Shown here in pieces: positions 1 through 21,802 of a stretch of DNA of 42,079 bases. The notes under the pieces are model-generated. The model worked only from the letters and a program-made list of their open reading frames with translations. It searched no databases and was not told the DNA's origin. Numbering within the stretch: the stretch's first letter is position 1; each line of letters opens with the position of its first letter. Origin of the DNA: Candidatus Gastranaerophilales bacterium (lineage in GTDB: Bacteria > Cyanobacteriota > Vampirovibrionia > Gastranaerophilales > Gastranaerophilaceae); contig CALUTK010000013.1 of NCBI GenBank assembly GCA_944323675.1, forward strand, positions 1 through 42,079. The letters are read 5' to 3'. Position numbers and translations under genes: made by a program.

Positions 1-191
1 AATTCATCTTCAATCTCCTTAATGGAATCCAAGGCTATATTATATCTTTTGCCTTGTTTATCAACACAGGTTGCAAAGTCAACTTCATCATCAGCAAATT
101 TGTTCTTCCAAATGCAAATTAATAAACCAATTTCCTTAGTTTTTAAATTTAAAATTTTTGTTCCATACAATAGATAATCTTTTTCTGTCAA
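1..191 (-). CDS. Partial hypothetical protein (N-terminal 63 residues)
   Basis: An open frame on the minus strand runs off the left edge of the window. No ATG is available: an in-frame stop lies just upstream. A TTG at 191-189 is preceded by AAAAGGA about 5 nt away, which is a good Shine-Dalgarno, so I place the start there. The visible residues begin MTEKDYLLYGTKILNLKTK and continue through a charged stretch rich in K, D and E. There is no signal peptide or membrane segment in the visible part. I do not recognise the family. The codon use and the RBS support a real gene, but only the N-terminus is visible. It reads away from the tRNA genes to its right. Confidence 0.45.
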   Translation of the reverse strand, partial: MTEKDYLLYGTKILNLKTKEIGLLICIWKNKFADDEVDFATCVDKQGKRYNIALDSIKEIEDE

Positions 192-4887: not shown

Positions 4888-4966
4888 CGGGCTTATAGTT
4901 CAGTTGCCCAGCGGAGTCTAGACGCAGCGATTTCCATAATAGGCTCTACCAACTGAGAATAACCCG
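4888..4966 (+). repeat. tRNA-Lys-derived inverted repeat, copy 1
   Basis: The left arm GGGCTTATAGTTCAGTTG copies the first 18 nt of tRNA-Lys with one change. The right arm GGCTCTACCAACTGAG is the reverse complement of the tRNA D-arm. The ends CGGG/CCCG close the hairpin. The interior CCCAGCGGAGTC...ACGCAGCG is not found in the tRNA. Copy 2 starts about 99 nt further on. It cannot fold as a tRNA because the anticodon and T arms are missing. Confidence 0.75.
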
Positions 4967-4987: not shown

Positions 4988-5062
4988 GGGCTTATAGCTC
5001 AGTTGCCCAGCGGAGTAGAGACGCAGCGCTTTTCATAATAGGCTCTACCAACTGAGGATAAG
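4988..5062 (+). repeat. tRNA-Lys-derived inverted repeat, copy 2
   Basis: The left arm GGGCTTATAGCTCAGTTG is identical to the 5' end of the tRNA-Lys gene 97 nt downstream. After a 9-nt insert CCCAGCGGA comes GTAGAG, which completes the D-arm sequence. A 20-odd-nt loop and the complementary arm CTCTACCAACTGAG then close a bulged hairpin ending ATAAG. Copies 1 and 2 are nearly identical in the middle (ACGCAGCG..TT..CATAATAGG). Confidence 0.8.
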
Positions 5063-5084
5063 TATTGAAAATAAAATAAAATTT

Positions 5085-5157
<73 letters not shown>

Positions 5158-5212
5158 AGTTTTTATTTTCAGATGGAACCAGATAAAGCATTTTCAATTT
5201 CCCGAAAATTAC

Positions 5213-5325: not shown

Positions 5326-5353
5326 TTGAAATTTGTAAAACATGTGGTATAAT
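5326..5353 (+). promoter_or_regulatory. Strong promoter of the giant autotransporter gene
   Basis: TTGAAA (5326-5331), 16-nt spacer, TATAAT (5348-5353) preceded by TGG, an extended -10. The predicted start near 5360 gives a leader of about 50 nt to the first ATG (5411) and about 98 nt to the second (5458). Transcription therefore does not limit the gene; control is more likely at the G-tract. Confidence 0.8.
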
Positions 5354-5410: not shown

Positions 5411-8400
5411 ATGGAAAAACTCGATTCTAAAAATTTTAATGCCTCAGGAGGCGATAAATGCGAAACCCGTTCTGTGACAGCAATCTTACAGGGGGGGGGG
5501 GGCAAAACACTATTAGCAGCCCTCTTCGCCGGATGTCTGGTCCTTTCTTCCGCATCTGCCGCGTATTCTGCTGATGGAAACCCTTCTCCTATTCTAGATA
5601 AACTTAATACCGCCGGAACTCTTGTTCCTGATTCTAACAGCGTATATCCTCCGAGTGAATATACGCTTACTCAGGTTGTGCCGGTGGATATTCATAATTT
5701 AGAGCCTAATGTTATTAAGATTTACGACCCTAATAATTTTGGTGAGGAGGTGCGTTATTTTGAAATAGGGTTTAAGAAACCTGTTTATGGTGAGGGCTCT
5801 GCTGTCAAATATTACGTCTGGGATAAGGACGATAACGGAGTTAAGCTTATTGAGACTGACAATCCTGAAGGCGCTGTGTTGACTTTGAAGTTTGATCCGG
5901 ATAATCCGGTGCTTCCGTTTAAAAATATTTCAGGTAACACGGTTGAATCTCTTAATGAAATTTTTATTGAGCAGGACATTAAGAACATTATTTCGGTTGG
6001 AGGAACTGTTAACAATCTTTCTTCTGTTTTCAAGGGTAACAACCTTGTTGTGACCAATGAGGATGAGTACAATTATTCTGCCATCATTGCCGAATACAAC
6101 GGAGACATTAAGAACATTAATTCCAGTTTTATTGGAAATTCTGTGGATGTGGTGACTGACAATAAGGTTGTTTACGGGCCGTTTATTAAGGATTTATCTA
6201 ACGTCAATAACATTTATTCTGAATTCATTGCCAACACGGTTAAAGCTAATTCTGCTACTGTTAACGGGGGGATGATTGAGGTTTCTGATGCGGGTGTGTT
6301 AGGGAAGCTTTCGTCTGATTTCTTACTTAACAGTGTTATTTCTCAGACAGGGGATATTGAGGGCGTTATTTTTGCTAATGACGGCAAGGTTTCGGCGATT
6401 GACGGGGCTATGTTTTTGGGCAACTACGGGGTATCTCAGGCAGGAGATGTTTCCGGAGGGGCTATTTTCAACAACCGCGGGGTGATTGAGAAGGTTACAG
6501 GTTCTTTATTTGAGGGTAACTATGTTTCTTCGGGCTCAGGTGAGGCTGCCGGAGGGGCTATTTACAATGTTAACAGGATTGACAGCATTGAGAATTCTAT
6601 TTTCACGGATAACTTTGCCTCTTCTGCAAGCGGAGAAGCGGTTGGCGGGGCTATTTACACTGATTCCAATTTAAAGATTGCGGCGAATGACGGGAAGGTT
6701 TCGGAATTTACCGGAAACTATGTTTTGAATAACGGGGTTAGAGAGGATCAGGCAATATATGTTGACGGGGCTGTATTGACGCTTGAGGCGACGGATGGCG
6801 GGCGGATTTTACTGAACGACATTATTAACGGTACGCAGGGCTACGATGTTCTTTTAACCGGTGACGGCAGCGGGAAGATATCCATTTACAATCAGATTTT
6901 GAACGCGGACATTGAGGCGCGGGCAGGGGCTGTTGTTGATTTTGCGGACGGGAAGAATTTTGATTATGACATTCGGTCGTTGAAGGCTGATAACGGGGCT
7001 GTCTTTAGTATTGATGCTAATTTTGCTGACGGGACTTCGGACACATTGACAATCGGGAGCGGGTCGGGTGTTATCTATATTGATGACATTAACCTTTCGG
7101 GGGATCTGGCTGCTGAGGGTATTGTGCAGGTATTGACGTCGCCTGACACTATTTCTATAGGGTTAACGGATAAGCTTATTGCGCAGTTTAACAAGAGGGT
7201 TGAAGACGGCGAGGCTTATGAGGTTGTTGACGAGGTTAAGGCTGACTCCGGCTGGGGGGATGAGTATGAGGCTCACACCTATCAGGATTACATTGAGGAA
7301 GGCATAAGGACTGCTATAACTGATGAGAGCAGGGGGACGGCGGACAGCATTGAGTATTACATTGAGGAACAGACGGATGAGGTGCTCACAGAAACGCTCG
7401 GGGACACGTTGAAGCTTCTGGCGGAGGATTCGAGGGCGGCGAGGAGTTTCACGGCGGCGACTGCGGATGATGTTTATACCCTCTCGGATGATGGCGGGGT
7501 TATGACGTCAGGGAGTTACACTATTTCTGGTGTAAGGAATTCGCAGACAGGGAAGTTATCTACTATTGATGCGGACGGGCACAGTTTGGTTGAGGTGCAA
7601 GGCGGGACGCTTACTTACAAGGATGTAAATATTACGAACACTGCGCTTGATGACGGTGCTGTGATGAACATTTCGGGCGCTGATGCGGTCGGGAGATTCT
7701 CAGGTAATGTTGTTATTGATACGATTGACGGCACGAATGGCATTGTGAACAACGGTACGCTTTCGATTATGGCGGGGGCGGATGTTACGTCCGACACGAG
7801 CATAATCGGGACGGGAAGTCTTACGACAGAGGCTAATTCTGTATTTAATCTCATAAATGGGGCGTCGATTAATGCGGGCAGTGTTAATATTGCGGGCGGG
7901 ACGGTTATGCTTGGCGCGGACAGCACGCTTGCGGCTGATTCTATTGAGGTTACGCAAGGTACACTTGACATTACGGCGGCGGACAATCTGCTTTCAGATG
8001 TTACTATTGCGAATTCCGTGGGCAAAGTATATCTCGGCTCGGGGACTTTAGGGTCTGCTATTGCTGGCGGCAGGGGCGATTTATACATTAAGGGCAATGT
8101 TATTAATAACGCTATTCTTGAGGTTTCGAGGATTAATTTAAACGAAGCCGGTGTTTCTTTGACCACCAATGCGGACAATCTGAAGTCTGTGGTGAATATG
8201 ACGGCGGCGGCGAGCAGCGGCGGCAGTTTTGTTGCTCTTACGGGCGGAACCGTTACGAAAAACATTAACGCAAAGACCAATGTTACGGGCGATGTGACGC
8301 TGAAGGCTGCTGCGAGCGGGGCATGGTCGGTTGCGGAGGGTGCTTCCTTAACCACGGATGCAGGCTATATTAACTGGGATATTAACATGGCAAACAGCGG

Positions 8401-11400
8401 CACCGTGAACCTCACCGGCGGAACCCTCGCCGTCTCTCATGACATCTCCGGCGGTACCATTAACATACTTGGAGATGTTACCACAAATTCCGTACTCAAA
8501 GGCGAAATAATGAATGTTGCTGAGGGAGCTAAGATTACGTCCAGCGGCGGTTATTTGTATTCTGAAACTATACACAATGACGGTATAATTAGTCTCACTG
8601 GCGGAGCATTAAACGGAACTTATATTAAGAACCCGATAGAGGGCGCGGGCACTGTTGAATTTAAAAGCAACACGACAACATTAAGCAACGTCACTATTAA
8701 TCAGGCAATGCATGTACTGGAAGGCGCTACATTAACCACAAACAGCGCGGAGAATCTCGGGGGTGATGTGACAGTTGACGGAACAATCACCTTCACCGGA
8801 GGAAATTCCAACCTCAACCACAATATTACAGGCAGCGGTCAGGCTCAAATACAGGGAATCGTTACCAATAACGCACAGATTAATCTGGATAACAGGATAT
8901 ATTTCAACAGCGGGACACTTTATACAAACGCGAGCGACATAAGCGCGTCACATATTGATGGGTCTGGACACTTATATTTAAGCGGCGGAACACTTAATAC
9001 GGAGATAATTGGCAATGGCAGCATTAATACACACATTCAGGAGAATGCGGATGTAATCAGCAATGCCATAATTGGCGGAGGGAGTATAGATCTGCTGGCG
9101 GGTTCTTCCCTTACAATAGAGGCGGATAATATCGGAGACAACAATACTGTCACCTTACAAGAGGCATCCAACCTTATTCTCGGGGACGGGATTATTGATT
9201 TTCAGATACTCGGGCAGGCGAACGACCGCACAGTCACGATTGCCGGCGATGTCGGGACTGACAAATTCATAATCTATCCGGCAGTATATATAAAAGACGG
9301 CGGCAGCCTGACAACAGATATAGCGCTTATAAATCAGCAGATAACAAATGACGGCTCCTTATACCTGACGGGTAATCTGCAAAAAAAAGTTGCCGGTTCA
9401 GGTACAACTTATATTGATAAAGAACTCCAGATAGGGAGCAGCAACGCCTCATTTGACGGCACCCTTAATCTGAATGACGGGGTTTTGAGGAACTACTATT
9501 ATCTCGGCAAGCCGGATGAGACACTAAAGACTATTAATATAAACAAAGCGACAGGCGAAGGTGATTTAAAGCTCAATATAAATTTTGGCAGTCTAAAGGC
9601 TGACAAAATCAACCTTACAGACGTTCTTTCCGATGCGATATTCAGAATTTCAGCAGATGATATCAATTTTATGGGTGTAAATTCAAGAACGCCGGATACC
9701 GTGACGGATTATGACCCGATACAAATTCTCGACGGCGGCACAGGCGCTCAGCTGCAGATTATAGGGGACGGCAGTTTCAGCGAACATGTGTATAAAGATT
9801 ACTATGACCCGATTAGGGCGGATGTGTATTTTGATGACCAGTACAACCGCTATTACACAAACGGCACAGTTTCAGGAAAAATCGAACTTGCCCAGACGGA
9901 TTCTGTGAACGACAGCCTGAAGTTCACAGGCGTCATAACAGAGTGGGACGAAGAACAAATAGACAGAGGGAACCTTCTGAGAGATTTAAACATGTTCAAA
10001 ACTGATGAAGAACGTTTCTTCAGATTCAGAACCGCAGATGATGAGTATCTTGCGCCAGTGACATCTGACGGTGCCGTCAGCAAGCATTTCGGCACGACCG
10101 CCGCAGGGGTTTTAAACATAGTGGGCGTGAGCGAAACCCTGACTGACGGAACTGTCAAACGCGCCACTATTGATATGAACTACGGAAGCGGCTTCTATGC
10201 GGCAATCGCAAATACAAAACTCAATTTCTCCGATGTCCAATTCAAAAAAGGCAGATATTTTGTAGTAAATATGACCAACAACAACTCAATCGGAACAATT
10301 GATGAAAACGGTCATGTTTCAGGCGGAATCATTAATACATCATTTATAAATACAGATAGCGGCGGAACTTACACTGAGTCATCCAGTCAGAATTACGCTG
10401 CAGTGAGAGTGTATGATAGTACCATCTCCCAGATAGTTGATTCGGAATTCAAAGACAACACCTCCACCCTCACCAATACCGGCAGCACTGCACCATACAA
10501 GGTAGGCAGCGCACTATTACTTGACAGCTCTCAGGTAGGCTCCTCGCTCACAGGGGAAGGCGGAATTATCAATACTGTCTTTGAAAACAACTCCGCAGCC
10601 CTCTATGGCTCGGGTAAAAATCAATATGTATATGGCGCAGCTATCTACATGAATAATTCAGATATTACCACAATAAAAGATTCGGTATTCAAAAACAACA
10701 CCATAACCTCGGATATCAGCACAGCTCAAGGCGGCGCTATTTATATGAACGGCAGCTCAACCATCGGAAGCATTGAAAACACCCAATTCATAAACAACCA
10801 CGCAGTTACAGGATCTTCCAGCAACAACGGCGGCGCTATTTATAGTAGCGGAACTATCGGGACTATCAAGGATTCGCTCTTTGAAGGTAATACCGTGGAT
10901 AACTATGGCGGCGGCGCAATAGCCTCCTATAGAACTATAGGAGACATAATAAACACTGAATTCAAAAACAACTCCGCAAGATATGGCGGCGCGATATGGG
11001 GTGTAACCGGAACTATAAACAGTATCACGGATTCTCTTTTCTCAGGCAACACTTCAACCCAATCCGGAGGGGCAATCAGCGCTTATTACGCCGAAATCGG
11101 AACTATCACAGGCACTGATTTTATAGGGAATTCATCAGTGTCTACAGGCGGGGGGCTCAATATCTATGCAAATTCCACACTTGATACAATATCGGATTCC
11201 AACTTTGAAAACAACAGCCTGATAAATAACGCGGTCGGCAGCAGCCCCGAGGGCGCGGGCTTATATCTAGGCAATGTCACATTAAATAACCTGACAGATA
11301 CGACTTTCCTGAATAACCATATTGAAGCCAATACCAGCGGCTACGGCTACGGCGGCGGGCTGCGTTTCTACAATGTCACGGCTAACACAGGTGAAATCTC

Positions 11401-14400
11401 CGGCCTCACCTTCGACGGGAATAATATCAAGGCAACAACTGCCTCCGGCGGTGGTGCGAGTATATCATACAGCGCCATAAGCACGCTCAAAGATTCCGTA
11501 TTTAAAAATAATATTATTGAAGGAACCGGCTCTGCCTCAGGCGGTGGCATGACTTTGGGTTCTACCAATATCATAAACATCGAAAACCTGACTTTCGAAA
11601 ATAACGGCGCATTGGGCAGAAATGGTGCCTCTGGAGGTGCGCTCTACCTCTCAACGGCAAGGCTTACCAACGGAATCGTGAACTCGACCTTCCGCAATAA
11701 CTACGTAATAAATACAAACGACCAAATCGCTCAAACCTACGGAGGTGCAATTTGGACAAATGATAACCTCAAAATCATCGCGAATAACGACGGGGTTACG
11801 GAGTTCACAGGAAACTACAGGATGGTCGAAGGCGACGAATCCTCCAAAATCTACGAAGCTATCTATCTTTCAGGCAACAACAAAGTCCTCACTCTCAACG
11901 CCAATACCGGCGGTACTATCATTATGAATGACAGCATCAGAGGAGGCTCCAATACCTCCACCGTCGCGCTCACCGGCGATAATTCCGGCACCATTGAACT
12001 TTATAACAATATTAACAACCTCCGCGTCACTGCTGACAGCGTTAATATTAAAACTGCCAACAATCAAATTTTTGACTACAATTTCAACAGGTTAACCGCA
12101 GATAACAGCGCTAAATTTAATATAGATATTGATGCCGAAAATGCCGCCGCCGACAATTTTACAGTAGGCGCTAATTCCCTCGGCACAATCTATCTCGATA
12201 ACATTAATCTCATTAATTCCGCTGACGAAAATAAAATTATTCAAATTATACACGCTAAAGATGATTCCATTCAGCTTGCGCTTAACAGCCAGAATATTAA
12301 CCTCAGCGACGACCTCGTTCAGAATTTGAGCGACACTGTCTACAACAACGTCATCTACCATCAGGAAGAAGGCTTCAAGCTCGCAACCACTGATACAAAA
12401 AATGACAGCTTAATGTATTTCGCAGATATTACCTTTGACGGGCTGGATTTGATTTCCGCCTCAACTCTCAACGAGGTCAGAAACTTCGTCTTTGACGATA
12501 ACTCCATCTACCTCGCATCACAAGATATCTCGGATGTCGCCGCCGGAACCCTCAATATCTCAGGGCTTAAAGGGTCAGATAACATCTCCACAATCGATTT
12601 CGACAGCCATAAAGCTTTCAATCTCGTGAATGAAAGTGTTTTGAATATTAACGACACTAAACTCTCAAACTCTAATGGCGACGTCATTAATCTCGTGCAC
12701 GAAAATGCTGTCGTTAATCTCAACAACGCCGTAATCGACGGCTCTGTCACCGCTTCCGCTTCGCAAAATATTAATATTCTCGGTGATGCTGAATTTAAAG
12801 GAGCTATCAATGGCGCGGTTGTTAATCTCACAGCCGGAACCCTCTCTATGGCTCAAAATACTTTCCAAAATGCAGGGCTTCTCAATGCTACGGCAGGGCG
12901 CGTCTCTCTTGCTAACAGCATCACAGGCGAAAATTACATCTTCTCTAATCTCAATTCCGGCGAAGATACCAGATACGTTCTTGATTTAGATTTAGCCAAC
13001 GCCGCCTCTGATACTATAACCGTCCAAAAGGGGTCAGGTGTTATTACTATCGGGGAAGTCAACTTCTTTAACGAAGTCGGGGATAAAGATGAGTTCACTC
13101 TACAAATTCTCAACGCACAGGATGACTCTATTCAACTCGCGCTCGCTGACGACCTTGAAAACTTCACCTTCAAAGAACTCTCTCGTATAGAATCCGATGA
13201 GATTAAAAACGAAACGTCTTTCTCCGATATCTACTATGACAGAGAAAGATTAGGCAAAGTTCAGAGTCAGTTAACGCTTGAAACAACTTCCACTACTAAT
13301 GACAGTCTCCATTTTAGTATTGAAGAAGTCTGGGATGATTTTACAACCCAGCTTGATCCGACAGGGGACACCCTTAAACTCGTTGCGCAGGCTGAAAACC
13401 TTGATAACAAAACTTTCTCATCTTCTGACGCCTCGGAAATTTATCAGGTCTCGGACGATATAGGTAAAATTGCTTCCGGCAGCTTCACTATCTCCGGCAC
13501 AAGCAATGACGGTAATATGTCCACTATTAACTTTAACGAATTCAACGCCTTTGAGGTCGGCGAAAATTCCGGCCTTACTGTCACTGACACAAGGTTAACC
13601 GGCGCTGAGGATATTATTCACGTCACGGATTCCACTGGCACCGTGAAGCTTGACGGTGCTGTTATTGACGGCAATATTACCGGCGATGAAAAGTTCAATC
13701 TCGCGATTGACAGCACAAAGGAGACCACTCTTAACGGTACTGTTCATAATGCAAACACGACCTTCTCCAAAGGCTCGCTTATCTTTGCTGAAAACACCTT
13801 TGCTGATGCTGATACCTCACTCAATGTGACAGGAGGGCAGGTTGCTCTGGATAACGGAAAGCTTGACAATTTTGTTATTAATGATCTCCAGTCTTCTCTC
13901 AATGCTGTTTATTCGCTGGATGTTGATTTAAGTCAGGGCAAGGCGGACACTATCTCTGTCGGTGAAAATTCCACAGGTCCGATTGTTCTTTCAGAATTCA
14001 ATATGACAGGTGTCCTTGACGGTATTAAGCCAGAGGATACTTACACCATTAAAATCCTTGATGCGCAAAATAACAATACATATCTTGATTTATCTGAAAG
14101 TATTAAATCTCAGCTTGCGACAAGTGATATTCATCTCGGGTATGAAAGGGTGCTTGACAGCACTGATCCTATTAATGCGCACAGTTCCTGGGATGATGTT
14201 TACAACATTAACTACAGGGATAATGAAATCAGGGGAAGACTTGATCTTTACACTCAAAATACTACAAACGACAGTCTCTACCTCTATGATATTACCATTC
14301 ACATCGGAGATATTGCGGAAAGTCAGGGTGACACATTAATGCTTGTCAACCAGCTTAATGACGCGGACAGGAGCTTTACAACCAATGATCCGAAGAAGAC

Positions 14401-17400
14401 TTACAAACTTTCGGACGATATTGGTTCTACTGCTTCAGGAACCTTTACGGTTGCGGGGGCGGCGGATGATGCTGGTAATATTTCTACCATTGATATGAAT
14501 CGTTATACTGGGTTTATCTTGGATAATGAAGGGACTACTTTAAATATTTCTAACATTAAATTCCAGAATTTGAATTTTGCGGACGGTTCTTTAATCAATA
14601 TTACGGAAAAGGGCGGGATTGCTAATCTGAACAATGTTATTATTGAAGTTTCGAACAGTTTGAATGCTATTACCAATGCCGGGAGTCTTAATATGACGGG
14701 CGGTAAGGTTATTTTGAACAGCGGCATTGCCGGAGAGGGAATAACGTCTGTTACGGGAGGGGCGGATGTACTTCTTTCCAATGGGGCCCACATTGAGCAA
14801 TCTAACATTTTTGTGACAGACGGGTCGCTTACAGTTGATGACAGGAGCGTACTTGAGAGCGTGCTTGCTATAGGTGAAAAAGGTTCTGTGACCACTGCTG
14901 TTGACGGTATAACCTCGGATGTTGAAAACGACGGTAATATTACCTTTACGGAAGGCGATTTAGTTTATAACGTTTCGGGTGAAGGTACAACGAATATTGC
15001 GGGAGAAGTTATTAACAGTGCCTTGATTGATAACGATGTTAACGTTAAATCCGGGAAATTGACATCTTCTGCGGAAGCGATTACGGGGGCAATCAACAAC
15101 GAGGCTGAACTGCTTTTGAGCGGCAATCTTACAAAAGGCATAACCGGTTCAGGTACGACCATTGCGAATGAAAGTTTAAATCTTGCAAAAGGGGCGACGA
15201 TAGAAGGTGTTCTTGATTTGAATAATGCTGTTATTTCTACTGCTGACGAGGAGATCAGTGATTATGTAATCGGAGCAATGGTTAATGAGGGGGATTTCTC
15301 TATTAATGTTGATTTAACAAACAAGACTGCGGATAAATTCATTGTCGGCGAAAATTCTCAAGGTACTGTAACACTTACTGATTTGAATATTTTAGGTGAC
15401 ATTAATATTGAGGACATTCCGGAAAATCCTGAGGATTACAAGATTCAGATTTTGCAGACGCCGACGGATGCTATACAGCTTGCGTTATCTACACAGCTTG
15501 AGCAGGATTTGAACAATGACGAATTCTTTATTAAGGAGGAGCATGTTTTAGCGAACACTGACATTCAGGCTAAGAACAAATGGACTGACACTTATTCTGC
15601 CAATGATTTCATTAGGAAATACTATGGCAAACTTGGGCTTACGACTACTGACACTAAAAATGACAGTATTGGTATAACAGGTATCAGGTGGGAGGATAGT
15701 GAAGATGTTGTTAGCCTCGGGGATACTCTTGCACTTGTTAACAAGCTGGAGACAGAGGAAGATCGTACATTTGAAGCTAATTATGCATCAGAAGAATACA
15801 CTGTTAAAGAGGATCTCGGCAAAACTGCTCAAGGTTCCATTTCTGTAATCGGCATTCAATCTGAAGACGGGAACAGGAAGTCTACTATTGATTTTAACAC
15901 GCATTCAGGTTTTGAAACGGGTGACGGGGTTGAATTAAACATTTCTAATACGGAGATTAAGAATGCTGCGGCGGCTCAGGGTTCTGTAATTAATTCTACG
16001 GAAAAGGGTGCGCAAATAACATTAACCAACACTAATCTTACAGATAATATTGCAACGGGAGAACATGGCGGAGCTATATATTCTGCCTCGGATATTACGA
16101 TTGCTGCGGACGGCGGGAACTCTGTCATTGAAGGCAACAAGACTGCCAATGATGATGAAGCTATTTATTTAACAGGGGCTAAGCTTACACTCAACACCGT
16201 AAACAACGGTAATGCGTACATTAACGACAAAATTAACGGTGATAACGGATATCTTGTGGCATTTTCAGGTGACAAATCAGGTAATGTTTATCTGAATAAT
16301 GAAGTTAAAAACGCGAAAGCGTCGTTAGATAATGTTACCTTGAATCTTTCAGGGAACAATCATTTTGAATCTTCTGACTTTTCTATTAATTCAGGCACCT
16401 TGAATCTTGTCAATGATAAGACTCAGGAGCAGATTGCTAAATCTTTAACCATTAATGGTTCTTTCAACTTAAATGCGGATGTTGACCTTGAAAACGCTGT
16501 TATGGACAGGCTGCCGGAAAACACTGTTATTGCTAATGCTGATGCCTTTATTAACGTTGATAAGCTTAATCTTATTTCTGACACTAAAGCGCAGACTGTG
16601 GAAATCCCGTTTGCTTATGCCGGATTTAAGGATAACGTTCAATACACGGGTCCTGCGGAATTATCCAGAGATACGCAGGTTACCACCCTTTTTGCGCCGA
16701 TTTACAAATATTCTCTTGAATACGAAAACAGAGATGATTTAGGGTACTTTGTTTTTACCAGAGGGGCAGGATATTCGCCGTCTTCGCCGGAGGCTTTTAA
16801 CCCGTCTGTTTTGACCAGTCCGGTTGCGGCTCAGGCAGGTGCTTTTGCTGCTATGAATGAAACCTTCAACTATGCATTCAGGCATTCTGATGCTTTCTCT
16901 ATGCTGCCGGCGTCCGAAAGGCTTGCGGTTCATCTTGCTGACAGGTATGCTATTAATGACTCTGATGCTGTTTTGAAACGGTCGCTTATGAAAGATAACG
17001 GGTTCTGGGTTCAGCCTTATGCTAATTTTGAATCTATAGGATTAAAAAACGGGCCGTCAGTTGATGTTATCTCGTACGGTACTCTTATTGGCGGCGACAG
17101 CGAGTATATTACGCTCGATAACGGCTGGGGTACTGTTACTACAGCTTACGTCGGCTATAACGGCTCTACTCAAGACTTCTCAGGTGTCTCCACTACGCAA
17201 AACGGAGGCCTCTTAGGTGCCACTCAAACCTTCTACAAAGATAACTTCTTTACGGCGTTAACTGCCTCTGCAGGTGCTTCCGTCGGGGATTCCTCCACTA
17301 TGTACGGCTCTGAAACCTTCGCTATGCTCTTATCCGGTATTGCCTCTAAATCTGGATTCAACTTTGAATTTAAAGATGGTAAATATATTATTCAGCCGTC

Positions 17401-17887
17401 TATGCTTTTGTCGTACACCTTCGTCAATACTTTTGACTACACTAATGCTGCTGGCGTCAAAATTAGCAGCGATCCTCTACACACTATTCAGCTTCACCCG
17501 TCTGTTAAATTCGCTGCTAACCTCGATAACGGCTGGCAGCCTTACGCCTTCGCAGGGATGGTCTGGAATATCTTGAATGATACTAAGTTCACTGCTAACA
17601 ACATTGTACTCCCGGATATGAGTATTAAACCTTATGTAGAATACGGCCTCGGTATACAAAAATCCTGGAATGACTCCCTCTCCGGATTCTTCCAAACTAT
17701 GATTAGAAACGGCGGCAGAAACGGAGTAGCACTCTCCTTCGGCTTTAAGTGGATTCTTGGAAAGGAAAATAAGCCTGAACAAATCCTTTTCGATAATAAC
17801 GGAAACAAAATTGTCAACTCTACTAAACAACGCAAAGTAATTAAACAACTCAATCCCCGGCAGAAAACCGCCTTCGGTAATCATTAA
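5411..17887 (+). CDS. Giant Pmp-like autotransporter adhesin, 4,158 codons
   Basis: A type V secretion protein. The N-terminal signal KTLLAALFAGCLVLSSASA (from about residue 32) should send it to the periplasm. A C-terminal barrel of about 270 residues (roughly 3850-4118) should insert in the outer membrane and present the passenger. The passenger is a predicted beta-helix rich in G, T, N and D. Between about residues 1660 and 2130, and in two smaller places, it carries alternating GGAIY/GGAIW and FxxN motifs (FEGNT, FKNNS, FINNH), the hallmark of chlamydial polymorphic membrane proteins. A larger module starting GDTLxLV recurs six times. The barrel ends GFKWILG and is followed by about 40 charged residues, unlike most autotransporters, which end at the final strand. 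The ATG at 5411 has no Shine-Dalgarno; the ATG at 5458 has a perfect one but is out of frame because of the G12 tract. An adhesive role is inference. Confidence 0.93.
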   Translation: MEKLDSKNFNASGGDKCETRSVTAILQGGGGKTLLAALFAGCLVLSSASAAYSADGNPSPILDKLNTAGTLVPDSNSVYPPSEYTLTQVVPVDIHNLEPNVIKIYDPNNFGEEVRYFEIGFKKPVYGEGSAVKYYVWDKDDNGVKLIETDNPEGAVLTLKFDPDNPVLPFKNISGNTVESLNEIFIEQDIKNIISVGGTVNNLSSVFKGNNLVVTNEDEYNYSAIIAEYNGDIKNINSSFIGNSVDVVTDNKVVYGPFIKDLSNVNNIYSEFIANTVKANSATVNGGMIEVSDAGVLGKLSSDFLLNSVISQTGDIEGVIFANDGKVSAIDGAMFLGNYGVSQAGDVSGGAIFNNRGVIEKVTGSLFEGNYVSSGSGEAAGGAIYNVNRIDSIENSIFTDNFASSASGEAVGGAIYTDSNLKIAANDGKVSEFTGNYVLNNGVREDQAIYVDGAVLTLEATDGGRILLNDIINGTQGYDVLLTGDGSGKISIYNQILNADIEARAGAVVDFADGKNFDYDIRSLKADNGAVFSIDANFADGTSDTLTIGSGSGVIYIDDINLSGDLAAEGIVQVLTSPDTISIGLTDKLIAQFNKRVEDGEAYEVVDEVKADSGWGDEYEAHTYQDYIEEGIRTAITDESRGTADSIEYYIEEQTDEVLTETLGDTLKLLAEDSRAARSFTAATADDVYTLSDDGGVMTSGSYTISGVRNSQTGKLSTIDADGHSLVEVQGGTLTYKDVNITNTALDDGAVMNISGADAVGRFSGNVVIDTIDGTNGIVNNGTLSIMAGADVTSDTSIIGTGSLTTEANSVFNLINGASINAGSVNIAGGTVMLGADSTLAADSIEVTQGTLDITAADNLLSDVTIANSVGKVYLGSGTLGSAIAGGRGDLYIKGNVINNAILEVSRINLNEAGVSLTTNADNLKSVVNMTAAASSGGSFVALTGGTVTKNINAKTNVTGDVTLKAAASGAWSVAEGASLTTDAGYINWDINMANSGTVNLTGGTLAVSHDISGGTINILGDVTTNSVLKGEIMNVAEGAKITSSGGYLYSETIHNDGIISLTGGALNGTYIKNPIEGAGTVEFKSNTTTLSNVTINQAMHVLEGATLTTNSAENLGGDVTVDGTITFTGGNSNLNHNITGSGQAQIQGIVTNNAQINLDNRIYFNSGTLYTNASDISASHIDGSGHLYLSGGTLNTEIIGNGSINTHIQENADVISNAIIGGGSIDLLAGSSLTIEADNIGDNNTVTLQEASNLILGDGIIDFQILGQANDRTVTIAGDVGTDKFIIYPAVYIKDGGSLTTDIALINQQITNDGSLYLTGNLQKKVAGSGTTYIDKELQIGSSNASFDGTLNLNDGVLRNYYYLGKPDETLKTININKATGEGDLKLNINFGSLKADKINLTDVLSDAIFRISADDINFMGVNSRTPDTVTDYDPIQILDGGTGAQLQIIGDGSFSEHVYKDYYDPIRADVYFDDQYNRYYTNGTVSGKIELAQTDSVNDSLKFTGVITEWDEEQIDRGNLLRDLNMFKTDEERFFRFRTADDEYLAPVTSDGAVSKHFGTTAAGVLNIVGVSETLTDGTVKRATIDMNYGSGFYAAIANTKLNFSDVQFKKGRYFVVNMTNNNSIGTIDENGHVSGGIINTSFINTDSGGTYTESSSQNYAAVRVYDSTISQIVDSEFKDNTSTLTNTGSTAPYKVGSALLLDSSQVGSSLTGEGGIINTVFENNSAALYGSGKNQYVYGAAIYMNNSDITTIKDSVFKNNTITSDISTAQGGAIYMNGSSTIGSIENTQFINNHAVTGSSSNNGGAIYSSGTIGTIKDSLFEGNTVDNYGGGAIASYRTIGDIINTEFKNNSARYGGAIWGVTGTINSITDSLFSGNTSTQSGGAISAYYAEIGTITGTDFIGNSSVSTGGGLNIYANSTLDTISDSNFENNSLINNAVGSSPEGAGLYLGNVTLNNLTDTTFLNNHIEANTSGYGYGGGLRFYNVTANTGEISGLTFDGNNIKATTASGGGASISYSAISTLKDSVFKNNIIEGTGSASGGGMTLGSTNIINIENLTFENNGALGRNGASGGALYLSTARLTNGIVNSTFRNNYVINTNDQIAQTYGGAIWTNDNLKIIANNDGVTEFTGNYRMVEGDESSKIYEAIYLSGNNKVLTLNANTGGTIIMNDSIRGGSNTSTVALTGDNSGTIELYNNINNLRVTADSVNIKTANNQIFDYNFNRLTADNSAKFNIDIDAENAAADNFTVGANSLGTIYLDNINLINSADENKIIQIIHAKDDSIQLALNSQNINLSDDLVQNLSDTVYNNVIYHQEEGFKLATTDTKNDSLMYFADITFDGLDLISASTLNEVRNFVFDDNSIYLASQDISDVAAGTLNISGLKGSDNISTIDFDSHKAFNLVNESVLNINDTKLSNSNGDVINLVHENAVVNLNNAVIDGSVTASASQNINILGDAEFKGAINGAVVNLTAGTLSMAQNTFQNAGLLNATAGRVSLANSITGENYIFSNLNSGEDTRYVLDLDLANAASDTITVQKGSGVITIGEVNFFNEVGDKDEFTLQILNAQDDSIQLALADDLENFTFKELSRIESDEIKNETSFSDIYYDRERLGKVQSQLTLETTSTTNDSLHFSIEEVWDDFTTQLDPTGDTLKLVAQAENLDNKTFSSSDASEIYQVSDDIGKIASGSFTISGTSNDGNMSTINFNEFNAFEVGENSGLTVTDTRLTGAEDIIHVTDSTGTVKLDGAVIDGNITGDEKFNLAIDSTKETTLNGTVHNANTTFSKGSLIFAENTFADADTSLNVTGGQVALDNGKLDNFVINDLQSSLNAVYSLDVDLSQGKADTISVGENSTGPIVLSEFNMTGVLDGIKPEDTYTIKILDAQNNNTYLDLSESIKSQLATSDIHLGYERVLDSTDPINAHSSWDDVYNINYRDNEIRGRLDLYTQNTTNDSLYLYDITIHIGDIAESQGDTLMLVNQLNDADRSFTTNDPKKTYKLSDDIGSTASGTFTVAGAADDAGNISTIDMNRYTGFILDNEGTTLNISNIKFQNLNFADGSLINITEKGGIANLNNVIIEVSNSLNAITNAGSLNMTGGKVILNSGIAGEGITSVTGGADVLLSNGAHIEQSNIFVTDGSLTVDDRSVLESVLAIGEKGSVTTAVDGITSDVENDGNITFTEGDLVYNVSGEGTTNIAGEVINSALIDNDVNVKSGKLTSSAEAITGAINNEAELLLSGNLTKGITGSGTTIANESLNLAKGATIEGVLDLNNAVISTADEEISDYVIGAMVNEGDFSINVDLTNKTADKFIVGENSQGTVTLTDLNILGDINIEDIPENPEDYKIQILQTPTDAIQLALSTQLEQDLNNDEFFIKEEHVLANTDIQAKNKWTDTYSANDFIRKYYGKLGLTTTDTKNDSIGITGIRWEDSEDVVSLGDTLALVNKLETEEDRTFEANYASEEYTVKEDLGKTAQGSISVIGIQSEDGNRKSTIDFNTHSGFETGDGVELNISNTEIKNAAAAQGSVINSTEKGAQITLTNTNLTDNIATGEHGGAIYSASDITIAADGGNSVIEGNKTANDDEAIYLTGAKLTLNTVNNGNAYINDKINGDNGYLVAFSGDKSGNVYLNNEVKNAKASLDNVTLNLSGNNHFESSDFSINSGTLNLVNDKTQEQIAKSLTINGSFNLNADVDLENAVMDRLPENTVIANADAFINVDKLNLISDTKAQTVEIPFAYAGFKDNVQYTGPAELSRDTQVTTLFAPIYKYSLEYENRDDLGYFVFTRGAGYSPSSPEAFNPSVLTSPVAAQAGAFAAMNETFNYAFRHSDAFSMLPASERLAVHLADRYAINDSDAVLKRSLMKDNGFWVQPYANFESIGLKNGPSVDVISYGTLIGGDSEYITLDNGWGTVTTAYVGYNGSTQDFSGVSTTQNGGLLGATQTFYKDNFFTALTASAGASVGDSSTMYGSETFAMLLSGIASKSGFNFEFKDGKYIIQPSMLLSYTFVNTFDYTNAAGVKISSDPLHTIQLHPSVKFAANLDNGWQPYAFAGMVWNILNDTKFTANNIVLPDMSIKPYVEYGLGIQKSWNDSLSGFFQTMIRNGGRNGVALSFGFKWILGKENKPEQILFDNNGNKIVNSTKQRKVIKQLNPRQKTAFGNH
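5446..5460 (+). promoter_or_regulatory. Shine-Dalgarno and alternative start codon in a second frame
   Basis: AGGAGG (5446-5451), six spacer bases and ATG (5458-5460), the best ribosome site near this gene. The frame reads MRNPFCDSNLTGGGG and then, with 12 Gs, leaves the autotransporter frame and stops at TGA 5572-5574 after 38 codons. With 11 or 14 Gs it would read straight into the signal peptide KTLLAALFAG. Confidence 0.75.
5491..5502 (+). repeat. G12 homopolymer tract, putative phase-variation switch
   Basis: Twelve consecutive Gs lie 30 codons into the gene, just before the signal peptide and downstream of both candidate starts. It is the only such run in the window. Slipped-strand changes of one base would move the upstream starts in or out of frame with the 4,100-codon remainder. 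A third ATG (5439) stops at 5475-5477, before the tract. Confidence 0.85.
7401..16000 (+). repeat. Six diverged large modules inside the autotransporter passenger
   Basis: Each module opens with GDTL-like residues and continues with a block resembling (R/K)(S/T)F...YxLSDDxG..ASGxFTISG...STIDF...F, followed by LNISNTxI. Openings lie near nt 7401, 9967 (diverged, GNLLRDL), 12438 (diverged), 13369, 14328 and 15720. Four of the six are preceded by a second shared block: ..SLxADxxxxFxIDxDLxxxxADxxxVGxxSxGxIxLxxxN, then IQILxAxDDSIQLAL, then TxxxTNDSLxF. The copies are too diverged for DNA-level recombination now, so this is old internal duplication. Confidence 0.75.
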
Positions 17888-20962: not shown

Positions 20963-21802
20963 TTAGTCATACTCATACTTCTGCTCCAGCGGCACAAATC
21001 TGTAATGGATTTGTTTATTTTTCGGTTTTGTATTTGTTTTTGGAGGAGCTTCTATACTTTTTATAAGCGACTTTGAAAAAATTTTCGGATCTCTGGAGTT
21101 AATATAGTAAAAATCTCCTTTTGTGGCTTCAGAAAGACAGCGCAAATTGGAATTCCCGCCTATAGCAATCACATCAATAACAATATCTCTACGGCTTGCC
21201 ACAAGCGATTTTATATACGCACAAGGATCACCGTCACATGTATCAAAGCCATCGGTGACAAGAATTATTTTCTTTTTCGACTTTTTATAAAAATTTGACA
21301 AATCTTTATTAACAGTCTCTTTTAACGCATAAGTAAGAGGTGTAAGATTACCGATTTTAGCGGAATCAAGACCGGCAATGATTGATGAATTATTATAACG
21401 TCTCGGAAAAACTGCAAGTTTTGTGGATTTACAAAGCTCTTCCCTGGCATATTTGGATGTAAAATAGGGGCCAGATACGTACACTCTGTATTTTTTACTA
21501 TAAATTTTTGTATTTTGGGGTACACCCTGCCCGAAAACCCGTAAGCCTACTTTTGTATTTGAAGGGATCTCGGGAACTACAGTCTTTAAAACATCTTTAG
21601 CAAGATTTATCCAATTAACCATACTTGAGGAATAATCCACCAGAAGCATAATAACAACATATTCGTTTGCTTGTATGTAATCATTTTCTTTGTATTCATC
21701 AGGTGTATATACCTGATAATATTTTGTAGCAGCAAAAGCTACAGGTGACATAGTAAACATCAATATAAAAAATATAATAATAGCTTTTTTCATGACATCC
21801 AT
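20963..21802 (-). CDS. Exported VWA-domain protein, paralogue 2
   Basis: A 279-residue protein with a signal peptide or N-terminal anchor (KKAIIIFFILMFTMSPVAFA). A von Willebrand factor A domain (about 48-235) follows. Its metal site is visible: DYSSSM, then TPLTYAL, then VTDGFDTCDGDPC, with paired cysteines in the last motif. The tail is short and basic. It starts directly after the stop of its neighbour (TAG-ATG), so the two are co-translated. The second methionine (21793) could be the true start. The proteins match through most of their length (SKxAxFPxxxNSSxIxxGLxSAKIGxxTPLTYAL), showing a tandem duplication. The role is probably metal-dependent adhesion or envelope assembly; no partner is proven. 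Confidence 0.88.
   Translation of the reverse strand: MDVMKKAIIIFFILMFTMSPVAFAATKYYQVYTPDEYKENDYIQANEYVVIMLLVDYSSSMVNWINLAKDVLKTVVPEIPSNTKVGLRVFGQGVPQNTKIYSKKYRVYVSGPYFTSKYAREELCKSTKLAVFPRRYNNSSIIAGLDSAKIGNLTPLTYALKETVNKDLSNFYKKSKKKIILVTDGFDTCDGDPCAYIKSLVASRRDIVIDVIAIGGNSNLRCLSEATKGDFYYINSRDPKIFSKSLIKSIEAPPKTNTKPKNKQIHYRFVPLEQKYEYD

Follow-up and report, generated by a model that had tools for sequence, protein, structure and literature searches.

How is a giant autotransporter gene expressed when a run of twelve Gs lies in its 5' coding region, between two start codons of different frame and the signal peptide? The question is raised by a stretch of 42,079 nucleotides from Candidatus Gastranaerophilales bacterium (contig CALUTK010000013.1), here called the window, to which all plain coordinates below refer. 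A first-pass annotation, made from the letters of this stretch, had read the region as a graded switch, where slippage by one base would choose between strong, weak and no expression. We consider it probable that the tract is a slippage switch, that translation starts at ATG 5458, that the gene is ON at 11 or 14 Gs and that the assembled copy is OFF.

The tract and its upstream region

The G12 tract is found at 5491-5502 on the forward strand, where it encodes a run of glycines in the n-region of the signal peptide. A scan of the whole window finds no second G-run of at least 8. Upstream of the tract a sigma-70 promoter, TTGAAA-N16-TATAAT, is predicted at 5326-5353 (+); it matches 11 of 12 consensus positions and has a TG preceding the -10 element, on a scale where chance alone gives one promoter-like site per region of such size. 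At the same location the ortholog (G019/G092) has a similar TTGAAA-N17-TATGAT, as read from the alignment. Since the predicted promoter lies upstream of both ATG 5411 and ATG 5458, both would be on the transcript.

The first of these codons, ATG 5411 (5411-5413, +), lies 80 nt 5' of the tract and has no Shine-Dalgarno sequence. With 12 Gs (80+12), or with 9 or 15, it is in the frame of a 4,158-aa protein, and the same frame is shared by GTG 5474 (5474-5476, +), also without a Shine-Dalgarno sequence. The second, ATG 5458 (5458-5460, +), lies 33 nt 5' of the tract and is preceded, with a 6-nt spacer, by AGGAGG (5446-5451, +), itself within a small hairpin GCCT-CAGG-AGGC (5441-5452). ATG 5458 is in the giant frame at 11 or 14 Gs; with 12 (33+12) its frame stops 23 codons past the tract, which gives a peptide of 38 codons in total. 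With 10 or 13 Gs neither ATG connects to the giant frame. The first-pass annotation had given the position of the tract, the two starts with their signals and the outcome at each length in the same way, and our recalculation agrees with it in all these points.

The region 5458-5560 (+) codes for the signal peptide, with a short n-region, the glycine run, a hydrophobic core KTLLAALFAGCLVLSSASA and a probable cleavage site. The tract is a candidate slippage site: as in poly-G contingency loci, a homopolymer of at least 8 is located in the 5' coding region, and a change of one base shifts the frame.

Further upstream, window positions 4889-4962 and 4988-5061 hold two degenerate copies that are 92% alike and start like the tRNA-Lys at 5084-5158; they contain the 5' part of the tRNA-Lys inverted (GCTCTACCAACTGAG). 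In Rfam no family was found for these copies, and the tRNA was the sole significant match upstream of the gene.

The product is a giant autotransporter

With 12 Gs the giant frame extends over 5411-17887 and encodes 4,158 aa, and 3' of the tract it is intact over 4,127 codons. The passenger (5561-16807, +) has about 3,750 aa, is repetitive and is probably beta-helix-like; a Pfam search with the full-length protein gave no match, passenger included. The remainder (16808-17884, +) corresponds to a C-terminal autotransporter beta-barrel translocator. The last 359 residues of the protein match NCBIfam TIGR01414 with 44.8 bits (cut-off 16), the AlphaFold model of the barrel (11 homologs, pLDDT 75) shows an N-terminal helix and then barrel strands, and the best Foldseek matches are EspP, EstA, BrkA, AIDA-I and NalP. 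By these three lines of evidence the protein has what defines a classical (type Va) autotransporter, a C-terminal 12-stranded barrel preceded by an alpha-helix. A signal-peptide-like sequence is in frame with passenger and barrel, from the Shine-Dalgarno start only at G11 or G14. Judged by its modelled fold, the gene product is a giant type Va-like autotransporter, as had been suggested from its sequence, and it would be displayed on the surface.

In named genomes, relatives of the barrel are nearly all labelled Candidatus Gastranaerophilales or Melainabacteria, which puts the window organism among the Candidatus Gastranaerophilales as well. A contig search with the N-terminal 578 aa gave no match, and the same kind of search with the barrel gave matches. 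On one contig labelled uncultured Elusimicrobium (L127, RUG11187) there is a barrel 47% identical to that of the window protein, for which either a wrong label or gene transfer could account.

Which start codon is used

Pairing with the anti-Shine-Dalgarno sequence is -10.3 kcal/mol at ATG 5458 versus +0.9 kcal/mol at ATG 5411, and for the first-listed starts of 27 other ORFs in the window the values range from +0.7 to -8.3 kcal/mol. The candidate N-terminal peptides of the alternative starts begin with MRNPFCDSNLTGGG and MEKLDSKNFNAS. From 5458 the n-region before the glycine run has 11 residues; the corresponding length is about 9 in the ortholog of genome G065, 17 in that of G092 and about 15-16 in the paralogs. 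A start at 5411 gives a leader of 27 residues before the glycines, several of them acidic, and no paralog has a leader of this kind. Further, a main-frame ATG that stays open through the tract occurs in 14% of dinucleotide-shuffled leaders.

The orthologs and paralogs offer no counterpart of 5411. In the ortholog alignment G065 has no main-frame ATG upstream of the tract, and paralogs C27 and C46 have no main-frame upstream ATG either. G092 does have a similarly placed ATG-GAA leader; it ends at a TAA directly before the next ATG and is therefore not a main-frame start. The main frame of the same ortholog contains a TAG just 5' of the tract. A point against our own reading is that no clear Shine-Dalgarno sequence precedes the nearest ATG that is open in this ortholog. 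Start codons in two frames are present upstream of the tract, as in two-start genes of the lic2A type; initiation signals or conservation of the second start, compared with G092 and G065, are not.

We also considered 5411 as the start of a conserved leader ORF, which was rejected given the stop of the ATG-GAA leader in G092.

In paralog C11 the tract is interrupted (GGGGGTGGT), and the frame is open from the equivalent ATG, preceded by a Shine-Dalgarno sequence. As read from its sequence, C11 is a natural "locked" control for the start used by the autotransporter family. Most likely ATG 5458 is the true start and ATG 5411 lies upstream of it by chance, from where it would allow no more than a weak leak at G12.

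The tract in orthologs and paralogs

Tract lengths were compared as assembled, in a sample of one genome per species. Orthologs of the N-terminus come from other genera of the family (G085, G092 and G065) and are 59-65% identical to it. In G092 and G065 the position of the tract is matched by a G11 directly 5' of the same hydrophobic signal-peptide core. The G085 contig begins inside an artefactual G28 run exactly at the tract position; such a break is expected, as assemblers fail at homopolymers, and 22 of 31 meningococcal tracts of this kind are found at contig ends (PMC4235727).

Autotransporter paralogs of the same genome have the tract at the same place after a Shine-Dalgarno start, with G10 in C27, G10 in C46 and G11 in C53, and the G006 ortholog of C27 has G17. 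Counted across relatives, the lengths differ and the position is kept, as at contingency loci.

Another autotransporter paralog, at G000:C1 4561-8678 (L042), has a G12 tract; a TAG follows its signal peptide closely, and further on the frame changes. From these disruptions it is apparently a decaying copy.

Poly-G tracts across the genome and the lineage

The genome of the window (1.81 Mb) contains 15 G-runs of at least 9, where about 1 would be expected from base composition by our own estimate at about 38% GC. Several of them are at gene starts and the rest are intragenic or intergenic; their lengths spread from 9 to 13. The genes with tracts include Stealth, RgpF, formyltransferase-like proteins and a TIGR04325 methyltransferase, which are classic contingency targets.

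Runs of at least 10 Gs are found in all 13 genomes of the genus. The density of tracts of exactly G10 is 8.55 per Mb for the family and 0.42 per Mb for the 109 remaining genomes of the phylum sample, a difference of about 20 times, with a maximum of 169 in one 2.2-Mb genome of the family. In the sampled loci the lengths of G-runs are bimodal: 7-9 is nearly absent and the peak is at 10 or 11. Loss of mismatch repair was considered as the cause of the many tracts and rejected, as MutS and MutL are present. For the same reason slippage rates may be modest.

The lengths are very uniform in some relatives, which is unexpected and unlike fast unbiased slippage. In 400 kb sampled from G063, a genome of a second genus (L288-L307), each of the 29 G-runs of at least 8 has a length of exactly 10 and no run of 7-9 occurs, and in G006 and G009 the tracts are mostly G11. 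Either the tracts of G063 are truly fixed at G10 or the assembler set a technical limit to their length; A/T runs of at least 9 are too rare to decide on such a limit.

Two tracts are found at the other end of genes, a G13 near the 3' end of a formyltransferase-like gene (L044, G000:C6) and a G10 near the 3' end of a weakly GT-D-like gene (L047, G000:C26). Slippage at these two loci would alter the C-terminus and not switch the gene.

An open-access literature search found no paper naming both Gastranaerophilales and phase variation. Dense poly-G tracts in these uncultured, non-photosynthetic gut relatives of cyanobacteria would point to a repertoire of surface antigens under immune or phage pressure. 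They are also a warning for annotation, as many surface genes of the group will appear frameshifted or mis-started in metagenome-assembled genomes.

Most tract genes are out of frame as assembled

The assembled state can be read for 54 tract genes from four genomes of the same genus, namely those in which a Shine-Dalgarno start is present and the frame past the tract is clear. As assembled, 50 of the 54 are out of frame, or OFF; the binomial P against one third ON is 7e-6, and since many of the 54 genes are paralogous pilins this test overstates their independence. Most of the genes in G006 need one G fewer, and almost all in G063, the genome of the second genus, need one more. The window gene fits the pattern, as its Shine-Dalgarno start is ON at G11 and the assembled tract is G12. 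Our preferred inference is a mutational attractor length combined with selection for a silent default.

In G006 (L190-L233) there are about 40 pilin-like genes (FTLAEVLITLGIIG) with a Shine-Dalgarno-preceded ATG 27-34 nt before a mostly G11 tract, and nearly all of them are one G out of frame. The start-frame stop of these genes is conserved one or two codons past the tract, and the encoded residues vary. About 35 pilin genes in G009 (e.g. L170, L173, L182, L240) have a common leader of roughly 200 nt, in which a Shine-Dalgarno-preceded ATG is followed after 29 nt by G11, then by a terminator-like hairpin (GCCGTG..CACGGT with a T-rich tail, at +71..90) and finally by the ATG of the pilin, with its own Shine-Dalgarno sequence, at about +145. 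When the tract has 10 or 11 Gs, the stop of the leader ORF is in most cases at +11 or +18; a G12 tract mostly extends the ORF to +61..100, as far as the hairpin or into it. The arrangement looks like a putative attenuation controlled by slippage of the tract. If that is true, the reading length of the leader ORF decides whether the ribosome reaches the terminator-like hairpin before the pilin gene.

A leader ORF is also found at L050 (G000:C33), with an ATG 29 nt before a G11 tract (21544-21554), and then a CTCCAT..ATGGAG hairpin that is predicted to hide the Shine-Dalgarno sequence of the TIGR04325 methyltransferase. For this leader to cross the hairpin and overlap the methyltransferase start, the tract must be G10 or G13.

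We suggest, as a tentative generalisation, that there is a Gastranaerophilales-wide poly-G "phasevariome" whose modal length is one base off frame, together with leader attenuation in one species. In that case autotransporters, glycan enzymes and dozens of pilins would be silent by default and switched on singly.

A slippage switch and its alternatives

Anatomy and conservation strongly support phase variation at the G12 tract as the probable mode of control. In the mechanism we propose, the giant autotransporter gene would carry, with the tract in its 5' coding region, a contingency element of the simple-sequence type, and translation would initiate at ATG 5458 with its AGGAGG. Strand slippage during replication in living cells would add or remove single Gs. 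With 11 or 14 Gs, ATG 5458 would be in frame with signal peptide, passenger and barrel (ON), and with 12, 10 or 13 its translation would end soon past the tract (OFF). If 5458 is the real start and the tract has 12 Gs, it follows that the assembled copy is OFF; it should be noted that homopolymer lengths in assemblies can be wrong, this G12 included. The first-pass proposal of a weak or off state finds support both in this frame and in the OFF majority of tract genes.

The part of that proposal which does not hold up well is the design with two selected starts, in which 5458 would give strong expression at G11/G14 and 5411 weak expression at G12, with none at G10/G13. The frames of both starts are indeed as such a design requires, 5411 is downstream of a good predicted promoter, and designs of this type exist in H. 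influenzae lic2A (PMC3116884, PMC4235727). However, 5411 has no Shine-Dalgarno sequence, an ATG of its kind is expected by chance at the rate seen in the shuffled leaders, and it has no main-frame counterpart in G092, G065, C27 or C46. Just 2 of the 42 OFF genes in G006 and G009, the best-sampled relatives, have a main-frame ATG. Second ATGs are found in paralog C53, 5 nt past the Shine-Dalgarno start and in frame at the assembled G11, and in the Stealth gene on C23, in frame and without a Shine-Dalgarno sequence. As these ATGs exist and some weak initiation at 5411 is conceivable, we regard the graded design as unlikely rather than disproved.

Another explanation is that the length of the tract is fixed and that full-length protein is made at a low, constant level through programmed frameshifting or slippage of RNA polymerase. 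We find this quite improbable, as the relatives are not off frame in the same direction (minus one G in most of G006, plus one in most of G063), the tracts of the window genome do not have one length, and paralog C11, no longer bound to an intact tract, is in frame. Such a mechanism would fit the strikingly uniform lengths in some relatives, nearly always one base off frame, and the pilins of G006, whose start-frame stop is kept 1-2 codons past the tract despite varying residues. Very improbable, finally, is that G12 is an error of assembly or sequencing, or that the gene is a decayed pseudogene, so that the locus is constitutive or dead. Homopolymers are error-prone, as the artefactual start of the G085 contig illustrates, and in paralog C1 an in-frame stop does follow the signal peptide, with a change of frame further on. 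Against this, the 4,127-codon frame past the window tract is intact, the tract recurs at this position in independent assemblies from other genera, and the bimodal lengths of G-runs have no error tail.

Comparison with known systems

Most known cases of poly-G phase variation come from epsilonproteobacteria, Neisseria and Chlamydia. In Campylobacter jejuni, capA encodes an autotransporter. Like capA and the other poly-G genes of C. jejuni, the window gene has poly-G in the 5' coding region of a surface gene, which single-base slippage would turn ON and OFF. Strain NCTC11168 of C. jejuni contains 29 poly-G/C loci with a length of at least 7 (PMC4965091), and the species is without mismatch repair (PMC4235727). 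In contrast, the window organism belongs to a different phylum and has MutS and MutL, and its switch is deduced from sequence.

The concept of two starts in a phase-variable gene is already known from lic2A and lic1A of H. influenzae. Multiple initiation codons in different frames before a repeat can give differential translation (PMC4235727), and two frames contain initiation codons in lic2A (PMC3116884); the functional initiation codons of lic2A and lic1A were studied by Dixon et al. 2007, as cited in PMC3116884 and PMC4235727. What these genes share with the window gene is a repeat tract preceded by start codons in more than one frame. The repeat of lic2A and lic1A is CAAT and their starts are functional, whereas the window gene has poly-G and a second start that is unconserved and has no Shine-Dalgarno sequence.

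According to PMC9022572, Haemophilus Lav is a phase-variable autotransporter with a GCAA repeat that is predominantly OFF in collections. The window gene resembles Lav as a putative phase-variable autotransporter that would be mostly OFF, and differs from it in that Lav has a tetranucleotide repeat, is a different protein and belongs to a different phylum. Neisseria NalP and Chlamydia Pmp are autotransporters with a 5' poly-C or poly-G tract and a C-terminal barrel. The window protein has the same combination of C-terminal barrel and 5' G/C tract, and the NalP translocator is among its fold matches; it differs from both in its passenger of about 3,750 aa, which is unrelated in sequence, and in its host, which is of cyanobacterial lineage.
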